Shown: positions 22,617-49,857 of the stretch, one piece after another
Position numbering within the stretch: the stretch's first letter is position 1
How the letters are laid out: each line of letters opens with the position of its first letter
From: Erysipelotrichaceae bacterium
GTDB taxonomy: Bacteria > Bacillota_I > Bacilli_A > Erysipelotrichales > Erysipelotrichaceae
Direction of reading: 5' to 3'
Length of the DNA: 64,000 nucleotides
NCBI GenBank assembly: GCA_017405785.1
Contig: JAFQZR010000011.1
Span: 1-64,000 of the forward strand
Program-made: the position numbers and the translations under genes
Notes under the pieces: generated by a model
The model's database searches: none
Told to the model about the DNA's origin: nothing
The model's input: only the letters and a program-made list of their open reading frames with translations

Positions 22617-22996
22617 TAAAACATACCTCCTGTAATATGTCTCAGTATGAACATGATTCCTACGATCAGCGCAAACACTGAAGCGATCAGAACCCCGCCT
22701 GCCGCCATATCCTTGATGTGCTTGACGGCACGGGATATCTCAGGCTCTTCCAGGTTCATGATCCTTTCAATGCTGGAGTTGGTGTATTCCAGACCCAGTA
22801 TCAGACCGCAGAATAACAGCACGATTGCAAACTCTTCCGGGGTAAAGCGGAAGATCAGGCTCACGATAATGGCTATGATCGCACATATAAACTGTATCTT
22901 TATGCTGGAGTCGTACTTGATTCCATGTTTGATGCCGTGATAGGCATATTTGAATTTGCTAATTATCTTCTTTATCATCTTGACTGACCAGTTCAT
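22616..22996 (-). CDS. dgkA: Diacylglycerol/undecaprenol kinase family membrane protein
   Basis: Small membrane kinase of the DgkA fold with three transmembrane segments (about 33-52, 55-72, 97-121) and the signature GLILGLEYTNSSIERIMNL with the active-site Glu and Asn. In Gram-positive bacteria these enzymes mainly phosphorylate undecaprenol and so feed wall synthesis. There are two candidate starts: ATG at 22996 within ybeY, or ATG at 22978 (MIKKIISK). Neither has a strong RBS, so coupling to ybeY is likely. Confidence 0.9.
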   Translation of the reverse strand: MNWSVKMIKKIISKFKYAYHGIKHGIKYDSSIKIQFICAIIAIIVSLIFRFTPEEFAIVLLFCGLILGLEYTNSSIERIMNLEEPEISRAVKHIKDMAAGGVLIASVFALIVGIMFILRHITGGMF

Positions 22997-23426
22997 CCAA
23001 TATCTTCTTCTGCAAAAAGATCATTTCCTTTTCATCCTCAGGTTCCATGTGATCATAACCGCACAGATGCAGTAGGCCGTGAGTAAACAGGAAGCAGATT
23101 TCTCTTTTCAGAGAATGACCGTATTCCACTGCCTGTCTTCTGGCTGCATCGAGGTTGATGAAGATGTCACCGAGTTCCTCTTCGATGTAATCCCCTTCAC
23201 TGTCATTGTCTCTTAGGGCAAAGGAAATGACATCGGTAGTTCTGTCGACATTGCGGTAATCCCTGTTGATCTGATGGATCTGCGGATCATCCACGAATAT
23301 CACGCTTACCACCGTCCCTCTTCTGAGATCAACATACTTTTTGGCATTACGGAAAATCTGACTGAAATAAGCCTTATACTTGCTGAAACCTCTCTGAGTT
23401 GTCTGGTTGTAAACATTTAAAGCCAT
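22959..23426 (-). CDS. ybeY: Endoribonuclease YbeY
   Basis: A 155-aa zinc metalloprotein involved in 16S rRNA 3'-end maturation and ribosome quality control. The signature HGLLHLCGYDH carries the three zinc-binding His; the TDVISFAL and LGDIFINLD motifs are also present. AAGGAG lies ahead of the ATG. It sits between the C39-like gene and dgkA in the murE–trmK operon and overlaps dgkA. Confidence 0.96.
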   Translation of the reverse strand: MALNVYNQTTQRGFSKYKAYFSQIFRNAKKYVDLRRGTVVSVIFVDDPQIHQINRDYRNVDRTTDVISFALRDNDSEGDYIEEELGDIFINLDAARRQAVEYGHSLKREICFLFTHGLLHLCGYDHMEPEDEKEMIFLQKKILDELVSQDDKEDN

Positions 23427-23449: not shown

Positions 23450-23809
23450 TTATATCACACTGTATCTGAGTGACACATAATATTTACGCCAAAACAGGCG
23501 AAAAAACCAACGCCTCACTCTCACGTAACCCAGTAGCGGGTCACACATCCAGACATGACGGTCATCGCCAGATATCACCAGATAATAATGCCTGTACACT
23601 GCATCGTACATGATGTACGGGAAATCGTAGCAGACTTCCGGGTCGTAATAACCTTCACACACGATGCCGTGATCCCGCAACACTTCAATGATATCCTGCA
23701 TCGCCAACCCTCTGCGGGTGACTCTGCCGTCAAGCTCTTTAATTATACCACCGCTGTCAATACCCATCAGGCGCAGGTATTCGCGCACACAGAAAACACC
23801 GCAGTTCAT
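23450..23809 (-). CDS. Stand-alone C39-peptidase-like protein
   Basis: A 119-aa protein that looks like one C39 cysteine-peptidase domain. It begins N-C-G-V-F-C directly after Met (family: D-C-G-x-x-C/A with catalytic Cys). RRGLAMQDIIEVL matches the internal RG-x-S-L-x-D-L helix, and HYYLVISGDDRHVWMCDP supplies the H-Y-x-V and D-P catalytic elements. There is no signal peptide, transporter or membrane part. Role unknown: it could be an active intracellular protease or an inactive relative. The start codon lies in a hairpin loop and has no clear RBS. It lies between phoH and ybeY in the operon. Confidence 0.65.
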   Translation of the reverse strand: MNCGVFCVREYLRLMGIDSGGIIKELDGRVTRRGLAMQDIIEVLRDHGIVCEGYYDPEVCYDFPYIMYDAVYRHYYLVISGDDRHVWMCDPLLGYVRVRRWFFRLFWRKYYVSLRYSVI

Positions 23810-23828
23810 ATTACTTTATTGCGGTGTT
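23795..23828 (-). promoter_or_regulatory. Hairpin enclosing the start codon of the C39-like gene
   Basis: AACACCGCA and TGCGGTGTT (9 bp) flank a 16-nt loop that holds the ATG (23809-23807). Read leftward the 3' arm is followed by TTC, so it could be a partial terminator after phoH or a translation-controlling hairpin. The 3' arm encodes the presumed catalytic Cys motif. Confidence 0.6.
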
Positions 23829-23850
23829 TAATGTTAATTCCTTATTACTT

Positions 23851-40995: not shown

Positions 40996-41026
40996 AGGAA
41001 TATGTCCTACACCTTACTAATAAGTA
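40996..41026 (+). promoter_or_regulatory. SigH/ComX-like bipartite promoter of ssb
   Basis: AGGAAT (40996-41001), 14 nt, ACTAATAAGTA (41016-41026), then C and TGA. The same arrangement occurs before dprA (49857-49827). AGGAAT fits the SigH -35 (AGGANNT); TAAT stands at the place of the SigH -10 GAAT. No sigma-A promoter is seen here. The transcript would start about 20 nt before the GTG and include AAAGGAG. Confidence 0.6.
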
Positions 41027-41044
41027 CTGAAAGGAGAACAGACA

Positions 41045-41347
41045 GTGTTTAATCAGATAGCTTTAGTCGGTGTTCTGAAGTCCCTACCCACCGCTTTTTC
41101 CAAAGACGGGCTTAAGTATTCCCACATTGATGTTGAGGTTGAAAGATCCTACCGCGACAGTAATTCCCAGCCCATCTATGATACTTTCACCATCTACCTG
41201 TGGCGCGGCATCAGCGATGTCATTACCGAAAGGTACCCGGTGGGAACAACCGTGGGAATCAAGGGCCGATTGGAAAAGGAAGATGGCAGATGCATCATCA
41301 TGGCCGAAAGAGTCAGCATCATTCAGCCAGAAGAAAAGATCCCTTAG
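41045..41347 (+). CDS. Short single-stranded DNA-binding protein, probably competence type
   Basis: A 100-aa OB-fold protein of the SSB family. It begins F-N-Q-I-A-L-V-G-V-L, has the T-F-T-I-Y-L-W strand and the V-G-I-K-G-R-L strand. The acidic C-terminal tail ending in D-D-I-P-F is absent, as in accessory, SsbB-like forms. The start is GTG with AAAGGAG. A competence-type promoter motif precedes it. The 3' end overlaps coaX tail-to-tail by 4 nt. Confidence 0.85.
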   Translation: MFNQIALVGVLKSLPTAFSKDGLKYSHIDVEVERSYRDSNSQPIYDTFTIYLWRGISDVITERYPVGTTVGIKGRLEKEDGRCIIMAERVSIIQPEEKIP

Positions 41348-49112: not shown

Positions 49113-49811
49113 CTAAAGAACAATAATCTCTGCTCCCTGCTGGATCAGACGGTTGCATCCCAGACCGTTTTCATCACCCAAACGGTACGGAACGACATAG
49201 ATGTCCCTGCCCAGATCCAGGGCTTCTTCCACCGTAACCATGGTGCCGCTTTTTTCCCGGGCCTGGGTAACGATTACCTTTTCAGCCAGAGCTGCCATGA
49301 TGCGGTTACGAAACGGAAAATGCTCCTTACGGGGAGCTGTCCCCAAGGGATATTCCGTAATCAGAAGCTGGTATTCCTTCATGTACTTATACAGAGCATC
49401 ATTACAGAAAGGATAATGAATATCAAGCCCGTTGCCCAGTACACCGACGGTTTTTCTGCTGTTGCAATGAGCTATGGCATCAATACCCTTAGCCATTCCC
49501 GAGACGATCACATATTTCTCCCCTATTAACCTGGCGATTCTCCGGGTTGCTTCAATTCCGTAATCACAGCTGTTACGGCTTCCCACAATAGCCACCATTT
49601 TCTGTCTCAGCAGTTCCTTATTGCCCTGCCAGAACAAAACAAAAGGAGGATATTTCAGTTGCAGAAGCACTGAAGGATAATCCTCGTCTACTATTGTCAG
49701 GGCCTGCTGTAAGGGAATATCACCGGGATCTTCCTGCTTTTTCAGGGCCTTTTTTATCTGATGGTAGCTGCCATGATACTTTATGGCCAGCCTTACTAGT
49801 AATTCTCTCAT
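49113..49811 (-). CDS. dprA: DNA processing protein A
   Basis: A 232-aa Rossmann-like protein that loads RecA on incoming single-stranded DNA during transformation. Core motifs: VAIVGSRNSCDYG, VSGMAKGIDAIAH, VGVLGNGLDIHYP, FPFRNRIMAALA, VTQAREKSGTMVTVE. It ends soon after the core, so it lacks the C-terminal winged helix of longer DprA. The ATG at 49811 has only a moderate GAGG; an upstream GTG has none. A ComX/SigH-like motif shared with ssb precedes it. Confidence 0.94.
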   Translation of the reverse strand: MRELLVRLAIKYHGSYHQIKKALKKQEDPGDIPLQQALTIVDEDYPSVLLQLKYPPFVLFWQGNKELLRQKMVAIVGSRNSCDYGIEATRRIARLIGEKYVIVSGMAKGIDAIAHCNSRKTVGVLGNGLDIHYPFCNDALYKYMKEYQLLITEYPLGTAPRKEHFPFRNRIMAALAEKVIVTQAREKSGTMVTVEEALDLGRDIYVVPYRLGDENGLGCNRLIQQGAEIIVL

Positions 49812-49826
49812 TGCTGCCTGCCTCAC

Positions 49827-49857
49827 TACTTATTAGTGAGAAAAGGCAGAGATTCCT
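49827..49857 (-). promoter_or_regulatory. SigH/ComX-like bipartite promoter of dprA
   Basis: AGGAAT (49857-49852), 14 nt, ACTAATAAGTA (49837-49827), then G and TGA. It is identical in all fixed positions and spacing to the motif before ssb. AGGAAT overlaps the rnhB stop codon. CTCACTA..TAGTGAG also forms a 7-bp hairpin that would include the start of the RBS. Confidence 0.6.

Follow-up and report, generated by a model that had tools for sequence, protein, structure and literature searches.

In a 64,000-nucleotide stretch of the genome of an Erysipelotrichaceae bacterium (hereafter the window), an identical two-block, promoter-like word stands before a short ssb gene and before dprA, which raises the question of whether an alternative sigma factor of the SigH/ComX type drives a late-competence regulon in this organism. 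Both predicted copies of the 35-base word (AGGAAT-N14-ACTAATAAGTA-N-TGA) were found with 0 mismatches, one at 40996..41030 on the forward strand and the other at 49823..49857 on the reverse strand. The identities proposed for the two genes also held: a 100-aa SSB (41045..41347, +), starting with GTG 14 nt past the word, matched the Pfam (E 2e-7) and NCBIfam SSB models, and a 232-aa DprA (49113..49811, -), starting with ATG 11 nt past the word, scored above the cut-off of TIGR00732. At dprA, the stop codon of rnhB overlapped the word, being the TAG of TTTTAGGAAT/TAGG. No further match to the strict word was detected in the 64 kb, even with three mismatches allowed, and 100 dinucleotide shuffles of the window gave a mean of 0.01 matches, with no shuffle containing two. 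The claim that the word occurs nowhere else in the window was right for this strict form but failed for the core AGGAA-N17-WAWWAAGTANTR, of which a third exact copy (23809..23842, -) lay directly upstream of an open reading frame (ORF) for a C39-like protease (119 aa, 23450..23809, -; Pfam C39 E 1.5e-4, at the cut-off). The C39-like gene was present in 9 of 96 family genomes, and the C, H and D of its presumed catalytic triad were conserved in relatives. The next gene, ybeY (22959..23426, -; assigned from its translation), is likely transcribed from the promoter of the C39-like gene, and the order of the two was the same in most relatives carrying the C39-like gene.

A first scan of the 1.96-Mb genome with up to three mismatches gave sites just upstream of comGA and comFA, from which the fixed bases were identified as AGGAA, 17 bases, WAWWAAGTA and N-T-R. 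The relaxed word AGGAA-N17-WAWWAAGTA-N-T-R had 13 exact matches in the genome, the ssb site among them, compared with about 0.03 expected from base composition; the reversed pattern, used as a control, and a pattern with the spacer lengthened by one base (N18) each gave 0 exact matches genome-wide. AGGAA was present in 13/13 sites, AAGTA-N-TGA was fixed after the -10 in the sites of this genome, and the strict 20-base word was merely one variant of the genome-wide word. As the word was relaxed after sites had been seen in the same genome, the count of 13 is partly post hoc, and independent support comes from other genera. A chance origin was ruled out by the reversed, spacer and shuffle controls. 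Most of the 13 sites lay where a competence or recombination operon begins, preceding comGA, comEA, comFA, radC, dprA, ssb and rpsF-ssb, so that their placement was not random with respect to competence genes, in line with the original prediction.

Exact words were followed by comGA with the pilus operon, comEA-comEC-holA, comFA-comFC, a small membrane ORF with radC, rpsF-ssb-rpsR, a gene for a 96-aa protein of the MG284/MPN403 family, and a three-gene ABC exporter (MacA-like membrane protein, ABC ATPase and permease; L172, C25:48839-51345). The word belonging to hpf lay within the preceding gene, 107 nt upstream. An intergenic site beside valS (L168, C15:5672-5705, -) was followed further on by a 34-aa ORF (MKKWFIKQIIKLYLIIQLRFGKMK...) that has a good ribosome site; this region could possibly supply the regulon with a small peptide or RNA. 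The site at C24:39126, where a polysaccharide gene ends, was probably a chance match. Three further sites matched the AGGAA-N17-WAWWAAGTA core and failed at the last two positions. Two of these were upstream of RelB-type antitoxin genes, one adjoining a YafQ-type toxin gene, and the third was upstream of an Rpn-type nuclease gene (antitoxin/nuclease sites L045 and L046, C7:6076 and C9:32749, and L047, C9:104938). Only 2 nt separated the word from the ATG of comEA and of the C39-like gene, whose mRNAs may therefore be leaderless. The reading frame of comFA extended upstream of its first ATG into a zinc-finger N-terminus (C-x2-C, C-x2-C; L165, C23:119749-119858), which had no ordinary start codon.

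A survey using the Pfam Competence domain had reported Erysipelotrichaceae to have lost ComEC (PMC6299819), and PF03772 indeed had no match in the whole genome. However, the gene between comEA and holA (L164, G000:C25:31929-33734) matched TIGR00361 (ComEC/Rec2) at E 6e-44, below the cut-off of that model, and a two-sequence profile built with its counterpart between comEA and holA in another genus (L198, G069:C5:2076-4029) matched solved ComEC structures at E 2e-39. Absence of ComEC as judged by PF03772 was rejected as a false negative, and the PF03772 miss was taken as divergence, because ComEC homology was otherwise clear; the gene order was comEA-comEC-holA. This promoter-bearing operon contradicts the reported loss, the channel having escaped the Pfam model.

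A SigH-like sigma gene, of the kind expected under the original prediction, was found at the SigH locus. Among six sigma region-2 matches in the genome, one was RpoD (in the window), four were small or ECF-like, and one (G000:C2:82930-83535, -) occupied position X in the order cysS-mrnC-rlmB-X-secE-nusG. The position rlmB-X-secE-nusG is the SigH locus of Bacillus. The encoded protein matched the SigH models of NCBIfam best (E 1e-17), with 63.9 of 212 bits, a score below all curated cut-offs. Among solved structures, its best relative was sigma-H (3mzy, E 1e-13). Synteny of the SigH locus across Firmicutes has been described (PMC3364868), and the SigH homologue adjoined secE/nusG in 20/22 family genomes. 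When compared with two species of the same genus, SigH identity was 37-39%, versus 71-74% for its neighbours RlmB and NusG; in the same comparison DprA had 56-57% and ComGA 59% identity. SigH thus diverges much faster than its neighbours, which, together with the changed word, makes co-divergence of the sigma factor and the word plausible. A broken sigH in the genus was considered and rejected, as an in-frame TGA in one species (G072) removed the last residues only. The 3′ end of sigH overlapped TTGAC, a -35-like sequence for the next gene, in G072 (L105; likely the -35 of rpmG) and in G023 (L108); in the G023 assembly, the reading frame of sigH changed near residue 69.

The exact own-type word was near control level in 95 other family genomes, the exception being a member of another genus (G063) with an own-type word 8 nt upstream of comGA. 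Since the word was not conserved, relatives were examined one gene at a time, the upstream sequences of dprA and comGA being read in about 30 family genomes each. A de novo two-block motif fitted to 58 dprA/comGA upstream sequences of relatives, tAGGAwwT-N13/14-CGTATATA, scored 180.6, compared with 58-74 for six shuffled sets. Sites of at least 10 bits were present in 31/60 sense and 0/60 antisense upstream sequences, as scored on the motif's own training sequences. Sites upstream of dprA and comGA in two species of the same genus were weak or unclear. Another genus (G069) had a word of its own, AGGAAW-N15-CGTATATATAAGTAG, with 12 matches (control, 0), which preceded comGA, dprA, comEA, comFA, rpsF-ssb, a C39-like gene, Rpn-type nucleases and others, and also a ribbon-helix-helix antitoxin-like gene. 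Genes for RelB-type or ribbon-helix-helix antitoxins and for Rpn-type nucleases thus followed the word in two genera (L182, L184, L185 and L187 in G069). These comparisons supported the view that the gene set of the putative regulon is largely conserved across the family and that the -10 word is a species-specific dialect.

Listeria SigH sites consist of AAAGGATTT, 11 nt and GNNGAAT (PMC4754846), with which the predicted SigH-type -35 and spacing agreed. At SigH spacing, AGGAA stood in the 13 sites of this genome and AGGAwwT in the family motif, and the distance from AGGA to the -10 was 21 nt to GAAT in Listeria, 22 nt to TAAT here and 22 nt to GTAT in G069. The -10 did not fit GAAT (CGAATA in the cinbox), being TAAT, AATT or AATA here and CGTATATA in relatives; the prediction that TAAT takes the place of GAAT was borne out, TAAT aligning with the GTAT of relatives. 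Because of this unusual -10, the regulon was classed as a variant of the SigH/ComX type. A shared word upstream of the late operons (comG, comE, comF, dprA and ssb) was found here and also in the second genus. AAGTA-N-TGA occurs in no SigH consensus known to us; it probably spans the discriminator together with the start site.

The gene placement and the SigH-locus gene support the predicted alternative sigma factor of a late-competence regulon, and we infer that SigH reads the word, where the transcripts start and that the cells are transformable. With a probability of roughly 0.84, a SigH/ComX-type factor encoded between rlmB and secE-nusG recognizes the word as the promoter of a late-competence regulon. 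AGGAA would be the -35 contact, CTAATA, CAATTA or CAATAA, ~22 nt downstream, would replace CGAAT/CGTAT as the -10, and the fixed AAGTA-N-TGA would make up the discriminator and start region. Active SigH would direct RNA polymerase to start just upstream of ssb, dprA, comGA, comEA-comEC, comFA-comFC, radC and others, and by this joint start the pilus for DNA uptake, the channel and the proteins that handle single strands would be made together.

Some promoter sites could also fold. At dprA, a hairpin (49805..49857, -) was formed by the promoter spacer and the dprA leader, with the -10 in the loop (MFE -18.2, z -2.8; z -1.4 for a longer segment). Five of the seven own sites tested (dprA, radC, comEA, the C39-like gene and the ABC exporter) folded with the promoter spacer as the 5′ arm, the leader or gene start as the 3′ arm and the -10 in the loop; no hairpin was found at the other two, ssb and comGA. 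Across the family, z was below -2 at 11/29 dprA starts versus 1-4/29 at three control positions and 3/29 at comGA. Only read-through transcripts of the upstream gene would form this type of hairpin, which perhaps silences them; the evidence for this was suggestive and the feature not universal. A wider proposal, with CTAATAAGTA here versus CGTATATATAAGTAG in G069, is that the sigma factor and its word co-diverge fast, giving each genus or species its own dialect with a largely constant gene set, that antitoxin operons and Rpn-type nucleases were recruited, and that a subset of the promoters lies in hairpins silencing read-through RNA, so that only SigH-started RNA would be expressed. Taken jointly, these parts make a tentative scheme, to which we give somewhat less than even odds.

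Strong hairpins at several sites, and their enrichment at dprA starts across the family, would also be expected if the word were an RNA-level signal, such as a leader or terminator element, rather than a promoter. However, the ssb and comGA sites had no hairpin, the pairing arms varied between genes while AGGAA and AAGTA were constant, and the comEA word ended 2 nt upstream of the ATG, so that we give this explanation hardly any credence. The 2-nt distance in comEA and the C39-like gene also leaves no space for another promoter, and the surroundings of the ssb site yielded no sigma-70-type promoter; both observations argue against the word being an operator at which a ComK- or ComR-like activator recruits the housekeeping sigma factor. 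Activator-driven competence does exist, ComK being the activator that drives it in Bacillus, and AAGTA-N-TGA is more strongly fixed than a usual -10 region, but the fixed two-block spacing fits a SigH -35 and -10 and the family consensus (AGGAwwT/CGTATATA) is SigH/ComX-like, which makes an operator unlikely. Reading of the word by one of the four further small or ECF-like sigma factors of the genome, instead of the SigH-locus factor, is very improbable: their genes are not at the SigH locus and, as far as read, have their own accessory genes or unrelated neighbours, whereas the promoter seen across the family is of a SigH-like kind, and most family genomes retain the gene at the SigH locus.

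With a SigH-read promoter as the preferred reading, the new elements here are the dialects, the added members (C39-like protease, Rpn-type nucleases and RelB-type antitoxins) and a ComEC that its Pfam model fails to detect. The added members would hint at putative competence functions, and this natural set of sigma factors, each with its matching word, would be useful for learning how both change together. The regulon is also testable, and a literature search, which is weak evidence because subscription papers were mostly outside it, gave no account of how competence is controlled in this lineage.

Control of late competence genes by SigH or ComX is known from Listeria, L. sakei and pneumococcus (PMC4754846, PMC3364868, PMC3661451, PMC6560143). 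A further parallel, drawn from the description in a review (PMC9262362), is the sigma-20 (MG428) regulon of Mycoplasma genitalium, in which an alternative sigma factor controls recombination genes; an MG284/MPN403-family gene was a regulon member here. The streptococcal ComX/SigX regulon, with the cinbox TACGAATA (PMC3661451, PMC6560143), likewise has a single promoter word for dprA, ssbB, comFA-comFC, radC and pilus genes; unlike it, the organism studied here has its sigma gene at the SigH locus and no GAAT. The SigH regulons of Listeria monocytogenes, Lactobacillus sakei (PMC4754846, PMC3364868) and Staphylococcus aureus (PMC3486894) are also close and share with the present one a SigH-like factor at the conserved locus, an AGGA-type -35, the comG, comE and (in L. 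sakei) dprA operons, and similar spacing and distance to the gene. The putative regulon described here differs from them in its -10 (TAAT, AATT or AATA followed by the fixed AAGTA-N-TGA, where theirs is GAAT), in its extra members and in its strong drift between relatives.
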